From Candidatus Eiseniibacteriota bacterium (GTDB lineage Bacteria > JAFGKV01), in NCBI GenBank assembly GCA_025453925.1, contig JALOPK010000255.1, positions 1 through 7,028 of the forward strand: 7,028 nt of DNA, read 5' to 3'. A model generated the notes under the pieces. It was not told the DNA's origin and made no database searches. It saw only the letters and a list, made by a program, of their open reading frames with translations. This document shows positions 1-7,028 of the stretch, in pieces; within the stretch, counting starts at the first letter, position 1; every line of letters begins with the position of its first letter. A program made the position numbers and the translations under genes.

Positions 1-411
1 TCGCATTTCTTTCTCGATCCGGGATTCCCCGTTGATCGTGTTGAAGCCCTCTATGCCAAATGGGTCGACACCGCGCTTGATCGGCAGCAGACCTTCGTCG
101 TCATCGAGCATGAAGGCGCCATCTGCGGCGTGTTCATCTATGAAATGGATGACCGCACCACGCGGTTCGGCAGGAAGTACGCAGTCTGGAAACTGGCCGA
201 CGTAGACAGCCGGGTCCGCGGGAAAGGGCTGGGCATGCGGTTGTTTCATGCGACAGTCATGTCTGCCGCAGACCAGGGCGCCGATGCCATCGACAGCAGT
301 CTGGCGGTGCACAATGTGGCGTCACAGAATATCCATATCAGGCTTGGGTTTCGGCTGATAACCTCCGTGTACACGTTCCATCGCTGGTTTGAACCGAAGG
401 AGGCCCGATGA
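1..411 (+). CDS. GNAT family N-acetyltransferase, WecD-like (5' end missing)
   Basis: The frame is open from base 1 to a TGA at 409-411, giving the last 136 residues of a protein whose start lies outside the window. Residues 73-78 (RGKGLG) form the acetyl-CoA pyrophosphate-binding loop of GNAT motif A. They are followed by a helix, an N..A..N stretch (106-110) and an LGF turn (115-117), the usual GNAT C-terminal half. The opening part (DPGFP, LYAKW at 17-21) and the closing TFHRW (125-129) recall WecD-type enzymes, which acetylate the 4-amino group of a dTDP-amino-deoxyhexose. Family knowledge: GNAT enzymes in nonulosonic-acid clusters (PseH and equivalents) N-acetylate the UDP-4-amino sugar precursor. 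The four-base overlap with the PseI gene suggests such a role here. The exact substrate is not readable from the sequence. Confidence 0.85.
   Translation, partial: SHFFLDPGFPVDRVEALYAKWVDTALDRQQTFVVIEHEGAICGVFIYEMDDRTTRFGRKYAVWKLADVDSRVRGKGLGMRLFHATVMSAADQGADAIDSSLAVHNVASQNIHIRLGFRLITSVYTFHRWFEPKEAR
397..403 (+). promoter_or_regulatory. Shine-Dalgarno of pseI
   Basis: AAGGAGG lies four bases before the ATG at 408 and inside the end of the GNAT gene. This strong site, plus the ATGA overlap, supports the 408 start and coupled translation. Confidence 0.8.
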
Positions 412-1553
412 CCCCCGCACAGCAGAAATCGGATGTTGATCGTGCCGGAGGAATCGGTGAGGCGCGGCCTCATGTCCACCCCAATGGGGAACCCGCGCCG
501 GCGGGGCCGAGTGTCAGGATCGGCGGCGTCCAGGTTGGTGGCGGAGCGCCGTGCTTCATCGTCGCGGAACTTTCCGCGAACCACAACCAGGAGTTCGAAG
601 AGGCCGTTCGCCTCATTCGCGCGGCCGCCGAGTGCGGCGCCACCGCAGTGAAACTCCAGACGTACACACCCGACACGTTGACGATAGATTGCCACAACGA
701 GTACTTCCGAATCGGCGCGGGCACGGTGTGGGCGGGCAAGAACCTCTACCAGCTCTATGGTGAGGCCTACACCCCCTGGGAGTGGCAACCCAAGCTCAAG
801 AGGATTGCGAACGAGCTCGGAATGGAGCTCTTCTCCACGCCCTTCGATGAGACGGCGGTGGACTTCCTGGAAGAGATGGGCGTCCCGGCCTACAAGATCG
901 CCTCCTTCGAGCTGGTGGATCTTCCGCTCATCAGAAAGGTCGCCTCCACCGGGAAGCCCATGATCATGTCCACGGGCATGGCCACCGTTGAAGAGATCGA
1001 TGAGGCCGTCTCGGCAGCCAGGGAGGCGGACTGCGCGGATCTCGTCCTTCTCAAGTGCAACAGCGCGTATCCTGCGCCGCCGGAGGAGATGAATCTGCGC
1101 ACCATCCCGGATATGGCCGCGAGGTTCGGTGTTCCGGTCGGCCTCTCTGACCATACTCTCGGAATCGCCGTGCCCGTGGCGGCCGTGGCGCTGGGTGCCT
1201 GCATGATCGAGAAGCACTTCACTCTGTCGCGGGCGGTGCCTGGTCCGGATAGCTCGTTTTCCCTGGAGCCCGCGGAGTTCAAAGCCATGGTCGAAGCCGT
1301 GCGCGTCACCGAAAAGGCAGTCGGTACCGTCCGCTATGAGCCAGCCGGGAAGGAAGCCGCCAGCCGGGCGTTCCGCCGCTCCCTGTTCGCGGTGCACGAC
1401 ATCGCCGCGGGCGAGCAGCTCACCCCGCTGAACATCCGATCCATTCGCCCCGGGAACGGGTTGCCGCCCCGGCACTGGAACCAGGTCCTCGGCCGCAGAG
1501 CCGCACGGGAGATCACGAGGGGAACGCCGCTGACGTGGGATCTCATCCAGTAG
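408..1553 (+). CDS. pseI: Pseudaminic acid synthase (NeuB/PseI family)
   Basis: The 381-residue product should condense 2,4-diacetamido-2,4,6-trideoxy-L-altrose with phosphoenolpyruvate to give pseudaminic acid in the cytoplasm. The TIM-barrel NeuB domain spans about residues 46-310: AELSANHN (53-60), KLQTYTPDTLTID (82-94), STPFD (143-147), YKIASFE (162-168), STG (188-190), GLSDHT (245-250) and EKHFTL (268-273). H249 and H270 match the family's metal-binding histidines. A C-terminal SAF/antifreeze-like domain follows (about 323-381, from RRSLF). The NLYQLYGEAYTPWEW stretch (112-126) is typical of PseI and unlike sialic acid NeuB or legionaminic acid synthases, so I favour pseudaminic acid. 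About 35 Pro/Ala/Gly-rich residues precede the usual family start. There is no in-frame ATG, GTG or TTG between 408 and the domain, so this start is forced. It overlaps the GNAT stop (ATGA) and is followed closely by the flippase. Confidence 0.93.
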   Translation: MTPAQQKSDVDRAGGIGEARPHVHPNGEPAPAGPSVRIGGVQVGGGAPCFIVAELSANHNQEFEEAVRLIRAAAECGATAVKLQTYTPDTLTIDCHNEYFRIGAGTVWAGKNLYQLYGEAYTPWEWQPKLKRIANELGMELFSTPFDETAVDFLEEMGVPAYKIASFELVDLPLIRKVASTGKPMIMSTGMATVEEIDEAVSAAREADCADLVLLKCNSAYPAPPEEMNLRTIPDMAARFGVPVGLSDHTLGIAVPVAAVALGACMIEKHFTLSRAVPGPDSSFSLEPAEFKAMVEAVRVTEKAVGTVRYEPAGKEAASRAFRRSLFAVHDIAAGEQLTPLNIRSIRPGNGLPPRHWNQVLGRRAAREITRGTPLTWDLIQ

Positions 1554-1564
1554 ATCCCCGGGCA

Positions 1565-2845
1565 ATGCCGGCAGCCGCGCAGGCTGCTCCGACGCCCCGC
1601 TCCCGCTCGTTGCGACGGCTGACAGCCGAATGGGCGGGCAGCAACCTCGTCTCTTCGTTCGCCCGCCTGGCCGGAGGGCTTCTCGTGTCGAGGGCCGTCG
1701 CTCCCAGCGTGCTCGGCCTTTTCAATTCGATCAGTCTCGCCTGTGGCTATGCCCCGTTTTTTCAACTGGGCGTGGTAAATGGCCTCAACCGGGACCTGCC
1801 CTATCACATCGGCACGGGAGACTGGCCTCGCGCCCGTGAACTCGCGGCCGCGGCCCAGGCGTGGGCGCTGATCACCGGGGGGTTCTGCGCGTTCGTGACT
1901 CTCGGCATCGGCGGGTGGCAGTTACTGGGGGGACGGGGGGATCTGGCCTTCGGATGGACCACGATATCGCTTTCGGTCTTCATGGCGGTTTTCGGGCAGA
2001 TGTACCTGCAGTCCCTGTTTCGGACGCATTCTGACTTCTCGCGCCTGGCGGCCTACAATGTAATCCAGGCATTGGTTTCGCTGGCCCTGGTACCGCTCGT
2101 CTGGGCCTTCGGGTTTCACGGGCTCTGCGGGCGGGCGTTCCTGATAGCGGCATCGAGTCTCATGCTCCTCTGGCGGTGGAGGCCGCTGAAGGTGGCGTTC
2201 CGTCTTCGTTGGGAACCGGTGAGACAGCTCCTCAAGACAGGGATCCCGCTCCTTGTCGTCGGGCAGATCTATGCGTGGTGGACGGTGCTGGACTCCACGC
2301 TCGTCCTCAGGTACGCCGGCACCGAAGGTCTGGGGCTCTACGCATTGGCCGCGCTCGCCGGACCGACGGTCGGCATGGTGCCGCACGCGCTGAGCCAGGT
2401 CGTGTATCCGCGCATGGCGGAGGAGTACGGCCGCACCCGGCACATCCGGCCCCTCCTGCGCATGGTGTGGTCGCCGGTGCTCCAGAGCTTCGCCGTGACC
2501 GCCCTCTTGGTGGCGGTCTCCTGGGTGGCACTGCCCTACGCGGTTCGAATGATACTGCCGAAGTACGTTGGCGGGATTCAGGCGGCTCAGTGGTCCCTCG
2601 TGGCGACACTCCCACTGACTTTCATGCCGGTGAACAACGTGTTCAATGTCGTGAAGCGGCAGGATCTCCTTGGCGCGGCCATCGCGTTTGGCATGGCGGT
2701 GTACGTCGGTGTCATGTTTCTTCTTGGCGGCACACACGCTCGACTCGCTGCGTTTCCCCAGGCGATGCTGGTTGGCCGGGTGTGTTTCATCTCCCTCTGC
2801 GTTCTACTGATCACCCGGCTGCGCCTGCATCCGGACCCCAGATAG
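1565..2845 (+). CDS. Wzx-like polysaccharide flippase (MOP superfamily)
   Basis: This is a very hydrophobic protein of 426 residues from the ATG at 1565, or 436 from an in-frame GTG at 1535 that overlaps the pseI stop by 19 bases. Hydrophobic segments run along the whole length; clear ones (numbered from 1565) are about 55-70, 108-121, 133-150, 167-184, 190-203, 226-242, 257-280, 309-328, 344-360, 370-388 and 399-417. Size and layout fit the 12-14-helix MOP flippases that move undecaprenyl-linked glycan units across the inner membrane. The GLNRDLPYH stretch (73-81) and the VGMVPHALSQVVYPRMAEEY stretch (269-288) resemble those seen in polysaccharide-biosynthesis flippases. Start choice is uncertain: the GTG has GAGGGGA at 1517-1523, rather far upstream, while the ATG lacks a clear Shine-Dalgarno but leaves a clean 11-base gap after pseI. 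The position between pseI and a glycosyltransferase supports export of a pseudaminic-acid-containing unit (inference). A MATE-like transporter of another kind is less likely. Confidence 0.85.
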   Translation: MPAAAQAAPTPRSRSLRRLTAEWAGSNLVSSFARLAGGLLVSRAVAPSVLGLFNSISLACGYAPFFQLGVVNGLNRDLPYHIGTGDWPRARELAAAAQAWALITGGFCAFVTLGIGGWQLLGGRGDLAFGWTTISLSVFMAVFGQMYLQSLFRTHSDFSRLAAYNVIQALVSLALVPLVWAFGFHGLCGRAFLIAASSLMLLWRWRPLKVAFRLRWEPVRQLLKTGIPLLVVGQIYAWWTVLDSTLVLRYAGTEGLGLYALAALAGPTVGMVPHALSQVVYPRMAEEYGRTRHIRPLLRMVWSPVLQSFAVTALLVAVSWVALPYAVRMILPKYVGGIQAAQWSLVATLPLTFMPVNNVFNVVKRQDLLGAAIAFGMAVYVGVMFLLGGTHARLAAFPQAMLVGRVCFISLCVLLITRLRLHPDPR

Positions 2846-2929
2846 GGACATGGGCGCGAACACCAGGGGCAGAAGGCGCGGCGGAGGCGATCCAGCCGGA
2901 GACGCGGGCTGCCCCCCGGCGCCCCCCGA

Positions 2930-4543
2930 ATGACCGTGACGAGTGGACGACACCTGATGACCCAGTATGATTCCTCATCATCGCAGCGCTCAGGCCGTCA
3001 TGAAGCCCGGGACGTGGTGCGCGAGATCCTGCCCTGCGTGGATGCCCTCCTGGCATCGCTGCCGCCGGGAACTGGCCCCGCCCGCCAATGCCTGGAGATC
3101 GAGCGTGCGCTCATGGAACCAGGATTCGGAGGATTGCCGCTGGGTTCGACGCTCACCGACAGCCTCGGAAGCCTGTTCTACCGCAAGGTCAACCCCACTG
3201 GCGCCGCGGCCTCGGCGCGAGAGCTGGGGGCGTATGTTTTCCATGCGTGGCGAGGTGTGCGAGTTCCGCCCGGGGGCGTGGGCGGCCCGACCGGTCTCGC
3301 GCGGGTCATCCTCGCGACTATCAGCTCCCGTTCCTACAACCGTCGGTGGGCTCCCGCGGTCAGCCGCCTGCTTGCCCCCCAGGATTGCCTCGTGATCACC
3401 GATGATTCCGGCCTGCGTCAACTCTTGCCCACGGGAACCTCGTCATTGCGTTGGAGCAACATGCCCGGCATCGACATGCCCAGATGGAGACGCGTCTACC
3501 GCGAGGGGTCTCGCCGTCGGAGGGACGCGATCGGAGCACTCCGGCGACGATACGGGTTCTCCCGGCTGGCAGCACTCACGCTTGAACACGCACTGCTCGT
3601 CTCATCGCAATGGATGTGCCGCGCCGCGCGATTTCTGGACGCCACGATGCCGTCAGCAGTACTCGTCGAGTATGACCGGAACACCCGGGGGGCCTGTCTG
3701 GTTCTGGCCGCCCGCCAGCGCGGCATCCCCACCATGACCCTCATGCATGGCGTAATCAACGGGCCCTTCGGCTACACACCCGTTCTTGCCGAGAGGGTGC
3801 TGTGCTGGGGAACCCTCCAGCGTGAACAACTCATCAGCCTGGGGACTCCGCCGGGACGCATTGATGTGGTCGGGTATCCCCCCCTGGATCCCGGCCTCAG
3901 CGCCGAACGGCCGATGATTCGACGCCGGCTGGGGATCTCCGAGGACGCGGTGGTTGCGCTGCTCGCTACTAATCCGGTGGGGCTGGGGGACCGGATGCGC
4001 CTGGCAACGCTTTTCTGCGAAGCAGTGCTGCGGGTGGAGGGAGTCTGCGGGGTCGTCCGGCTTCATCCCTCAGAGTCGATGTCTGCCTACCAGGATGTGC
4101 GTGGCCGATACCCCGGGGTACGGTTCACCGCAAACCAGGAGATGACCCTGGAAGAGGCGATCGTGCTTGGGGACGTCTCGGTGGTCCACGCCAGCGGTTT
4201 CGGGGGGGAAGCACTCGCAATGGGAGGGCTCTGCATTGTCCTCGATGCGCTTCAACGCGCGTTTGGACATGCCGAGGATCTCACACGCCGGGGGGGAGTG
4301 CCCAGCGTCCAGAATGGCGAGGAACTCGCGGCGCTGCTGGAGAGGATCCGCGACGACGCAGCGTACCGGAGTTACCTCAGGGAGGAGGCGCATGGTTTCG
4401 TTCGGGCGCAGTATCACGCGCTGGGAGACGCCGCGTGCCGCAATATCGCTTCCGTCGTGCAGGAACACACCGCGGGCTCCGGCGCGCGCGGGCCGCTCGC
4501 CGCAGATTCGAAACCCGAGCCTGTCTTGAACACTCCGCACTGA
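2930..4543 (+). CDS. Large GT-B-like glycosyltransferase, candidate sugar (nonulosonate?) transferase
   Basis: The product has 537 residues from the ATG at 2930; a second in-frame ATG at 2957 is possible, and neither has a strong Shine-Dalgarno. I cannot place it in a named family with certainty. The C-terminal half looks like a two-domain GT-B enzyme: VLVEYDRNTRG (244-254), a strand-helix leading into GIPTMTLMHG (265-274) with the common HG pair, ERVLCWG (288-294), IDVVGYPPLD (311-320), VVRLHPSE (375-382), and SVVHASGFGGEALAMGG (417-433). The last resembles the nucleotide-binding loop of GT-B folds and UDP-GlcNAc 2-epimerase-like proteins. Similar signatures occur in capsule and polysialyltransferase-like proteins (family knowledge, recalled). 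Residues 184-210 are very arginine-rich and could favour membrane contact. The N-terminal 150 residues and the last 25 (Pro/Ala-rich, likely disordered) show no motif I know. No signal peptide or membrane helix is seen, so it is probably cytoplasmic. It sits 84 bases after the flippase. Confidence 0.75.
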   Translation: MTVTSGRHLMTQYDSSSSQRSGRHEARDVVREILPCVDALLASLPPGTGPARQCLEIERALMEPGFGGLPLGSTLTDSLGSLFYRKVNPTGAAASARELGAYVFHAWRGVRVPPGGVGGPTGLARVILATISSRSYNRRWAPAVSRLLAPQDCLVITDDSGLRQLLPTGTSSLRWSNMPGIDMPRWRRVYREGSRRRRDAIGALRRRYGFSRLAALTLEHALLVSSQWMCRAARFLDATMPSAVLVEYDRNTRGACLVLAARQRGIPTMTLMHGVINGPFGYTPVLAERVLCWGTLQREQLISLGTPPGRIDVVGYPPLDPGLSAERPMIRRRLGISEDAVVALLATNPVGLGDRMRLATLFCEAVLRVEGVCGVVRLHPSESMSAYQDVRGRYPGVRFTANQEMTLEEAIVLGDVSVVHASGFGGEALAMGGLCIVLDALQRAFGHAEDLTRRGGVPSVQNGEELAALLERIRDDAAYRSYLREEAHGFVRAQYHALGDAACRNIASVVQEHTAGSGARGPLAADSKPEPVLNTPH

Positions 4544-4558
4544 GGTGCCGCTCGCCTC

Positions 4559-4567
4559 GAGGAGAGG
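4559..4567 (+). promoter_or_regulatory. Shine-Dalgarno of the hexapeptide acyltransferase
   Basis: GAGGAGAGG ends six bases before the ATG at 4574. It directly abuts an in-frame TTG at 4568, too close for initiation there, so it decides in favour of 4574. Confidence 0.8.
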
Positions 4568-4573
4568 TTGCCC

Positions 4574-5224
4574 ATGCTCAGCAGAAACATACTCCGCATC
4601 CTGTTCGCCACCAGGGCTGTGTTAAGGCTCTCGCTCGATCGCGTCGTGATCGCCCCGCTCCTGCGGCTGCTCGGGGTCGAATTCGGGAAGGGCTGCCGTT
4701 TCTCAGGCATGCCCATCGTGAAACGCCACCCAGACTCGCGCATCATAGTGGAGCGTGGCGTTCTGGTGATCAGCCGGGGTGACGAGAACCCCGCCACGAT
4801 CCCGCACCGCACCATGCTCTCCACCCTCGGCAAGGGGGCGATCATTCGCATCGGCGCGGATGCCGGCATCTCAGGCGCTTCCATCGCGGCCAGCATTGCG
4901 GTGGAGATCGGCGAGCGTTCCCAGATCGGCTCCGGCGCCATGCTTTGGGACACGGATTTCCATCCGCTTGACCCCGATCTCCGCCGTGCACATAGGACCG
5001 CGGGCGCCGCCCAGGCGCCCATACGGGTCGGGTGTGATGTGTTCATCGGTGCGAGGGCGATCGTGCTGAAGGGGGTGACCATCGGTGATGGCGCCGTTGT
5101 GGGGGCGGGCGCCGTTGTTGCCGCGGACGTGCCGCCCGGCGCGCTGGTTGCCGGGAACCCCGCTCGAGTGATTCGGGACGTTGTCCGTGGAGGCTCGCGC
5201 CCGCTCCGGCCGTTGGAGACCTGA
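4574..5224 (+). CDS. Hexapeptide-repeat (left-handed beta-helix) acyltransferase, probable sugar O-acetyltransferase
   Basis: The 216-residue product belongs to the WbbJ/maltose-acetyltransferase-like group of trimeric acyl-CoA enzymes. An amphipathic/hydrophobic N-terminus (about 1-35) is followed by imperfect hexapeptide turns from about residue 36 (VEFGKGCRF) to 201: IIRIGADAGISGASI (90-104), AVEIGERSQIGSGAML (109-124), then IRVGCDVFIGARAIVLKGVT (150-169) and GDGAVVGAGAVVAADVPPGA (171-190). The end GNPARVI (194-200) is the usual closing signature. H130 in WDTDFHP (125-131) is the likely catalytic histidine, in the loop where family members carry it. It would transfer an acetyl or other acyl group from CoA to a sugar hydroxyl or amine in the cytoplasm. 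Context suggests decoration of a repeat-unit sugar, possibly pseudaminic acid, but the acceptor is unknown. It starts 30 bases after the first glycosyltransferase and ends 23 bases before the next start signal. Confidence 0.88.
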   Translation: MLSRNILRILFATRAVLRLSLDRVVIAPLLRLLGVEFGKGCRFSGMPIVKRHPDSRIIVERGVLVISRGDENPATIPHRTMLSTLGKGAIIRIGADAGISGASIAASIAVEIGERSQIGSGAMLWDTDFHPLDPDLRRAHRTAGAAQAPIRVGCDVFIGARAIVLKGVTIGDGAVVGAGAVVAADVPPGALVAGNPARVIRDVVRGGSRPLRPLET

Positions 5225-5247
5225 CAACCACTGAGGAAGAGACCGAT

Positions 5248-5284
5248 ATGCTGACCCTCACGAAGCCCGCCCTATCCCCCCCGG
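5248..5284 (+). other. Frame-displaced 5' end of the second glycosyltransferase gene
   Basis: An ATG at 5248 follows a good purine-rich site (GAGGAAGAGA, 5233-5242) and reads MLTLTKPA, a typical first beta strand of a GT-B enzyme. This frame runs on only to a TGA at 5434-5436, losing resemblance to anything after about 12 codons. The glycosyltransferase body is in the next frame and is open upstream only to a TGA at 5252-5254, where it would read PYPPRVGGSS just before and across its first usable start (GTG 5285). Joining the two frames by dropping one base between about 5266 and 5282 gives a normal family N-terminus. I therefore read 5248 as the true start of an interrupted gene. Confidence 0.7.
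5276..5282 (+). repeat. Seven-C run at the frame break
   Basis: CCCCCCC sits in the short interval where the reading frame must change. With six Cs, the frame from the ATG at 5248 would continue into the glycosyltransferase body. The run is seen directly; its role is inferred. Confidence 0.6.
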
Positions 5285-6436
5285 GTGGGTGGCTCCAGTA
5301 TTGTGATGTGGAATCTCCTGGCGGGGCTCACGCCGGAAAGCATTGTCCTGGCGACGTACAAGCCTGCGCGTGCCATCGAGACCCCGGTATTCGACCTGCC
5401 CCACGCACGACGCTTTGTGCACGCAGAACGCCCTGACTTGCCGTATAGAGTCGGGCGAGCATGGAAGTATGTTCAGCTCCCATTGATCATTCGTCGGTTG
5501 GCGTGCCTCTGCCGAGAGCACGAGTGCGGCGTGGTGATCGGCGTGTACCCCGACCTTTTCATGATGGACGCCGCACAGAGAGTCGCCGCCCGATTGGGGC
5601 TTCCGTTCGTGTCGTATCTGCACGACACCATCGCGGAGGCCACGTCGCTGTCGAGACTCGCCAGATGGGGGAACGCCGTGCAGCGGAGAGTGTTTGCGAC
5701 ATCGAACCTCGTGATGGTGCTGACGGGAGGCCTCTCGGACCTCTACGAACACAAGTACGGCCTGCGGCCGGTCTTCGTCCCGCATTCGTACCCCGAGCCC
5801 ATCGCCGACGCTACGGCGGATTTCGCATCGACCCGTCAGTCTCTCTTCTGGGGAGGCGCCGTGTACTCGATCAACTCAGAGGCCGTCGCCCGAGTGTTCA
5901 GAGCGATGATGAAGGTCGAGGGGCTGCGGTTCACCCTGGCAACCGCGCAAAGCCGGGGAGAACTGGCCGGAATGGGGATGGAGGGCGAACGCATTGATCT
6001 GACCTGCATTCCCGCCGAACAAAGGCCACGCTACCTTGACCTCCTGCGCCACCACGCCGTTCTTGTTCTCGCCCTGAATTGGCCTGACGAGACGAGGGTT
6101 CACGCTGACGAGCTGGCGACGATCTTCCCTACGAAGACGCCCGAGTATCTGGCATCCGGGCGACCCATTCTGGTCCACTGCCCAGAGCATTACCACCTCG
6201 CGCGGTTCTTCCGCCAACACGGGTGCGGAGAGGTTGTCGTCGAGCGTTCCGTCGAGGCGGTCGAAGCCGCGCTCCGCAGGGTGATCGGTTCACCAGACTA
6301 TCGACGTGAGCTGGGCTCCCGTGCACTTGTCGCGGCGCGCCAGTTCGCGCGGGAGCGGGTGGTGGCAGCATTCCGTGATGCAGTCGAGGGAGTTCTCAGG
6401 CATGATGGGAGTGACGCGTGCGCCGCCTCGACATAG
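5285..6436 (+). CDS. GT4-like (GT-B) glycosyltransferase, N-terminus frameshifted
   Basis: The open body encodes 383 residues from a GTG at 5285, which has no Shine-Dalgarno and is probably not the native start. GGSSIVMWNLLAGL (2-15) is the glycine-rich loop and first helix that normally follow the first beta strand of GT-B enzymes. YLHDT (111-115) lies where the acceptor-domain strand ends. ATSNLVMVLTGGLSDLY (138-154) and VFVPHSYPEP (163-172) form the linker into the donor domain. SLFWGGAVYSIN (186-197) matches the opening of the nucleotide-binding domain. TKTPEYLASGRPILVH (283-298) is the GT4 'E..asG.P' donor-sugar motif. It likely transfers a sugar from a nucleotide donor to the lipid-linked repeat unit in the cytoplasm; donor and acceptor are unknown. 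It lies 60 bases downstream of the acyltransferase stop (23 if counted from the ATG at 5248) and 45 bases before the epimerase. A full-length product would be about 395 residues. Confidence 0.82.
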   Translation: MGGSSIVMWNLLAGLTPESIVLATYKPARAIETPVFDLPHARRFVHAERPDLPYRVGRAWKYVQLPLIIRRLACLCREHECGVVIGVYPDLFMMDAAQRVAARLGLPFVSYLHDTIAEATSLSRLARWGNAVQRRVFATSNLVMVLTGGLSDLYEHKYGLRPVFVPHSYPEPIADATADFASTRQSLFWGGAVYSINSEAVARVFRAMMKVEGLRFTLATAQSRGELAGMGMEGERIDLTCIPAEQRPRYLDLLRHHAVLVLALNWPDETRVHADELATIFPTKTPEYLASGRPILVHCPEHYHLARFFRQHGCGEVVVERSVEAVEAALRRVIGSPDYRRELGSRALVAARQFARERVVAAFRDAVEGVLRHDGSDACAAST

Positions 6437-6470
6437 CTTGCCCGAGGGGCCGCGCGGTTTCTTGAGAGAG

Positions 6471-6480
6471 GAAGGAGAGG
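6471..6480 (+). promoter_or_regulatory. Shine-Dalgarno of the epimerase gene
   Basis: GAAGGAGAGG lies immediately before the ATG at 6482; its GAAGGAG core ends four bases upstream of the start. It sets the start codon clearly. Confidence 0.75.
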
Positions 6481-6481
6481 A

Positions 6482-7028
6482 ATGAGACTCCTCGTGACGG
6501 GATCCAGTGGCCTCATCGGCTCCGAGGTGGTCAGGTACTTCGACCGGCTCGGGTGGGAGGTCCATGGAATCGACAACAACATGCGAGCCGACTTCTTCGG
6601 ACCGGGAGGAGACACCCGCTGGAATCGGGACAGGCTACAGGTCGCATGCCCGCGCTTTGTGCATCATGAGACCGATATCCGGAACCGGGTCGAAGTCCTG
6701 GAGATCGTCAGGTCGTTACGGCCCGACGCCCTTGTGCACTCTGCCGCGCAACCGAGTCACGATCTGGCTGCGAGTCGCCCCTTCGACGACTTCGACGTCA
6801 ATGCCGTAGGAACGATGAACCTGCTCGAAGCCGCGCGGCTGGGTGCGCCGGACGCCGTGTTTGTGCACATGTCGACCAACAAGGTGTACGGCGATGCGCC
6901 GAACGAGCTGCCCCTCCGGGAGCTTGACACCCGGTGGGAATTCGCCCGGGATGAGGACTGGAATGGGGTGCGCGAGGACATGCGAATCGACCGCTGCAAG
7001 CACTCCCTGTTCGGCGCTTCGAAGGCGG
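6482..7028 (+). CDS. NAD-dependent epimerase/dehydratase, CDP-tyvelose/paratose 2-epimerase-like (3' end missing)
   Basis: The first 182 residues of an extended short-chain dehydrogenase are present; full members are usually over 300. GSSGLIG (7-13) is the GxxGxxG NAD-binding loop. D31 in GIDNN ends the second beta strand and points to NAD(H). TDIRN (64-68), HSAAQPSHD (86-94), [15 protein letters not shown] (105-119) and [12 protein letters not shown] (129-140) follow in the usual order. The STNKVYGD signature and overall order recall RfbE (CDP-tyvelose 2-epimerase), so a nucleotide-sugar epimerase acting on a dideoxy- or deoxyhexose is plausible. It could also be a UDP-sugar 4-epimerase or dehydratase. 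The active-site region reads HSLFGASK (174-181), with Phe177 where the YxxxK tyrosine is expected; Lys181 is kept. It starts 45 bases after the glycosyltransferase and would supply a sugar donor for the same glycan (inference). Confidence 0.85.

Follow-up and report, generated by a model that had tools for sequence, protein, structure and literature searches.

Why a glycosyltransferase gene in a surface-glycan neighbourhood should have its start in one reading frame and its body in another, beside a run of seven C (C7), is the question raised by this locus, for which the original prediction offered four readings without choosing among them: phase variation, +1 ribosomal slippage, a young pseudogene, or an error of sequencing or assembly. 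The window, by which we mean the whole stretch of DNA that was analysed, is one complete contig of 7,028 bases (C285) from a metagenome-assembled genome that is 82% complete and comprises 502 contigs with a total of 3.9 Mb. Its G+C content (64.6%) matches the value for the genome, 64.3% across 48 unmasked contigs, so the contig is no obvious stranger there, and its gene content reads, from the encoded families, as a surface-glycan (nonulosonate) cluster, with the following features:

1-411: GNAT acetyltransferase
408-1553: pseudaminic acid synthase (TIGR03586, 500 bits against a cut-off of 340)
After the synthase and before the 537-codon open reading frame: flippase
2930..4543, plus strand: open reading frame of 537 codons without a family, whose frame is unbroken across three 7-base C/G runs (3878, 4202, 4290), which makes it an internal control
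4574..5224, plus strand: hexapeptide-repeat acetyltransferase, its stop 23 bases before ATG 5248
5232..5240, plus strand: Shine-Dalgarno-like GAGGAAGAG, 7 bases ahead of ATG 5248
5248..5275, plus strand: N-terminal piece MLTLTKPA... in the ATG frame, likely the first beta strand, with the break probably in its 3' part
5276..5282, plus strand: C7 run, probably translated in the body frame (CCC CCC C..) to give the Pro-Pro of the GT-B loop
5285..6436, plus strand: body of a GT-B (GT4-like) glycosyltransferase, 383 codons, intact, recognised by PF13439 and homologues
Last gene in the window: epimerase, cut by the contig end

The 537-codon open reading frame (2930-4543) gave no match in Pfam, NCBIfam or PHROG and nothing significant in the PDB. 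No clear Shine-Dalgarno sequence stands ahead of its ATG 2930. The hexapeptide-repeat acetyltransferase and the gene that opens at 5248 likely belong to the same transcription unit. Comparison of the whole-cluster DNA (1-7028) with the same-genus and same-family genomes searched found no match, and this absence suggests a glycan locus that may be strain-variable or recently gained.

Judged from its reading frames, the gene is truly split in the present assembly, and the layout first proposed for it holds at every position, with the two halves in different frames, the start at ATG 5248, the C7 at 5276-5282, GTG at 5285 and a body of 383 codons. The frame of ATG 5248-5250 ends at 5436, after 62 codons, and in the body frame TGA 5252 blocks any extension upstream, leaving as the only possible start GTG 5285-5287, which lacks a Shine-Dalgarno sequence. 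ATG 5248 had been singled out as the sole start with a good Shine-Dalgarno sequence, and the energy of the duplex with the anti-Shine-Dalgarno bears this out, at -6.1 kcal/mol for ATG 5248 versus +1.9 kcal/mol for GTG 5285. Codon scores preferred the body frame at every 90-nt step from 5285 to 6364; over 5248-5265 they gave +3.1 for the ATG frame versus -10.0 for the body frame, a difference that includes TGA 5252 and, at six codons only, is weak alone. The glycosyltransferase body contains no stop and looks coding over its whole length, which agrees with the earlier argument that an intact remainder of this size speaks against old decay; any decay would be recent.

The body matched PF13439 (positions 2-156) with 27.3 bits (E 4.2e-6), slightly missing the curated cut-off of 28.5. 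This match starts at the GG loop, and Pfam therefore cannot decide whether the piece ahead of the GTG belongs to the protein. An AlphaFold model of the body, built from a two-sequence alignment, was poor (pLDDT 41.6) and opens with a helix, as expected if the first strand were missing.

Homologues were more informative on how the enzyme should begin. The homologue L002, 30-33% identical to the body, reads STLPPMVGG (STLPPMVGGTAKMMRNL) and is open to the contig end; L011 (MPKKLLVFAQRFPPSIGG / MPKKLLVFAQRFPPSIGGTPSGLRNLF) reads continuously through the Pro-Pro loop, as does a plasmid gene of Marinobacter adhaerens (MHVLLVAPSAPPKNSP / MHVLLVAPSAPPKNSPEAMQ), whose frame is continuous from an ATG that precedes the annotated start. 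In this Marinobacter glycosyltransferase (WP_227499812.1) the in-frame ATG at L148:1228 (L148:1228-1282) adds HVLLVAPSAPPKNSPEA. The added piece supplies the first strand and the Pro-Pro loop that one would expect, and WP_227499812.1 appears, from this comparison, to have been annotated from too late a start. Moreover, those generic GT4 genes from a search of 59 genomes whose N-terminus could be read have at least 11 residues ahead of the loop, including a hydrophobic strand. The searches for further relatives were thin in yield: the same-genus and same-family genomes lacked the locus, scans of genome contigs returned only L002, viral contigs and phages returned none, the small-phyla genomes nothing more, and plasmids a single weak match. 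A second copy of the site was not found within the same genome.

These N-termini also bear on where the frame breaks. The original prediction had proposed two sites, one upstream of the C7 and one inside it. We joined the two frames at each codon boundary and scored the products, ungapped and with BLOSUM62, against the three homologues (L002, L011 and Marinobacter). Joins that keep the body frame from about 5258-5276 onward scored 61-77, and joins within or after the C7 scored 49-53, under the unjoined body frame (55). The higher scores of the upstream joins come from the Pro-Pro doublet shared by the three homologues whose starts can be read, its register being that of the body frame at 5276-5281. 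Of the two proposed sites the upstream one is thus the better: by this register the break most likely lies at about 5258-5275, upstream of the C7, which would then not be the hinge. With homologues 19-33% identical and a placement that rests on a short motif, this is probably best taken as a preference among positions and not as proof, the three homologues being distant.

In our view the frame break is very probably of an ordinary kind, either a young mutation or a sequence error. The GT-B (GT4-like) glycosyltransferase frame (5248-6436) would carry one break, about 3-9 codons past the start, leaving the Shine-Dalgarno-bearing start and the first beta strand in one frame and the Pro-Pro/GG loop and the rest in the other. 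Ribosomes that enter at 5248 would stop at 5436, and with no other start that has a ribosome-binding site a complete enzyme would not be made, so that we infer a loss of function. The cause may be a young one-base change that inactivates the gene in all of the cells or in part of them, or else a mistake in the consensus of a fragmented metagenomic assembly; since the body is free of stops, a mutation, if that is what it is, would be recent. A single inactivating lesion in an otherwise coding-like open reading frame is what defines a young pseudogene, and such a lesion is what we find here. When 380 kb of this genome were scanned for frame breaks, by a procedure that recovered 34 of 60 planted single-base deletions, five candidate internal breaks were returned, several of which are probably normal gene boundaries; none of the five had a C/G run of at least 7 within the 50 bases around it. 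One of these candidates, L135:1890-2362, falls in C158, a small contig of this genome, where it lies on the minus strand (coordinates on the reverse complement). Breaks would accordingly seem rare but present in this genome, at a frequency of no more than about one in some tens of kilobases, and against so low a background one in the window needs no special cause. For annotation, the consequence is that automatic tools would call a truncated protein of 383 amino acids from GTG 5285 and miss the start in the other frame. Of the four readings first offered, the recent break by decay or by error is the one that survives, and phase variation and +1 slippage have become unlikely.

It could also be argued that nothing is broken, that GTG 5285 is the natural start of the enzyme and that the ATG frame before it means nothing. 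In favour stand an unbroken body and the fact that GTG may legitimately serve as a start, but no Shine-Dalgarno sequence supports this GTG (+1.9 kcal/mol), and a natural start there would leave unexplained the Shine-Dalgarno-bearing ATG 5248, 23 bases past the previous stop. Furthermore, homologues and generic GT4 genes have at least 11 residues, including the first beta strand, before the loop, so that a product from GTG 5285 would be without it. Homologues that start naturally at this position had been named as what would overturn the split; no homologue examined does so, and those with readable starts have the first strand and Pro-Pro before VGG. A natural start at GTG 5285 is therefore improbable.

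Phase variation, in which slipped-strand changes in the C7 switch the glycosyltransferase ON and OFF, is suggested by the place of the gene in a surface-glycan cluster, near a pseudaminic acid synthase that scores above the TIGR03586 cut-off, and by a C7 close to its 5' end. In Campylobacter a poly-G/C length of at least 7 is the cut-off for phase-variable genes, which the C7 reaches, but runs of at least 8 are reported to mediate switching (PMC6321876), and seven is the shortest length considered. With the C7 placed on the body side of the break by the register of the homologues, this reading loses its hinge: at an SSR phase-variable gene the frame changes at the tract, and here, as judged from three homologues only, it more probably changes ahead of it. 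Nor are such tracts longer or commoner than chance. In a 421-kb sample of the genome (60 random contigs and the window, with about 33 kb masked, 12 contigs under 3 kb being read as N) we counted 44 C/G runs of at least 7, against 54 expected from a second-order and 107 from a first-order Markov model. C/G 7-runs number four in the window, where 2.2 are expected from a first-order model, and in its annotated coding segments there are 3 runs of at least 7 against 2.8 by synonymous-codon shuffling. The three further 7-runs in the 537-codon open reading frame leave the frame intact on both sides. Together, chance-level counts, 7-runs within an intact frame and switching in Campylobacter at 8 or more make phase variation highly unlikely.

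The window is also the densest in C/G runs of at least 6 among the 48 unmasked contigs (11 against about 3 from the genome average). We considered this local crowding as a set of contingency tracts and rejected it, as synonymous shuffles reproduce the in-gene counts (8 runs of at least 6 in the window genes against 8.2).

The frames might instead be joined during translation, if ribosomes slipped by +1 at proline codons. The stretch does offer CCC-G and CCC-C contexts, the direction of the shift is the correct one, and tRNA-Pro is known to be shift-prone on CC[C/U]-[C/U], with levels that reach about 1% where such a site is the second codon (PMC4519876). However, the natural +1 slippage reported is about 1% or lower, no stimulatory element was seen, and the arrangement is absent in relatives, with L011 and the Marinobacter gene reading continuously. 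A programmed +1 frameshift further combines a slippery site with an A-site stop or hungry codon and is conserved; here nothing was found past the proline codons, the A site being occupied by neither a stop nor a hungry codon and the ATG frame continuing for 62 codons, and we hold such a joining of the frames to be very improbable. We give hardly any credence to the proposal that ribosomes naturally recode or slip by +1 within the proline-rich 5266-5282 and that this limits the output of the nonulosonate-cluster glycosyltransferase. Were it a true switch or recoding site, the locus would be a rare case, and one from an uncultivated lineage with little sampling; the evidence, however, speaks against this.

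Three known systems are useful for comparison. With the poly-G flagellar and LOS glycan contingency loci of Campylobacter, the locus shares a glycan gene, a C7 near its 5' end and a pseudaminic acid synthase nearby; unlike in those SSR loci, the tract here apparently lies beyond the break, is unenriched in the genome and is of the shortest length. With GT4-like GT-B glycosyltransferases it shares the PP-x-(V/I)-GG loop common to the homologues and a body that matches the PF13439 N-terminal domain, but in those enzymes the first beta strand stands ahead of the GG loop within one open reading frame, whereas here that strand is encoded in another frame, that of the ATG, and the score falls slightly under the curated cut-off. 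A third likeness is to young frameshifted (pseudo)genes and to indel errors of draft metagenomes, which have in common with this gene a single break, a stop-free and coding-like open reading frame, and a main body without an intact start; set against these the locus has nothing unusual.
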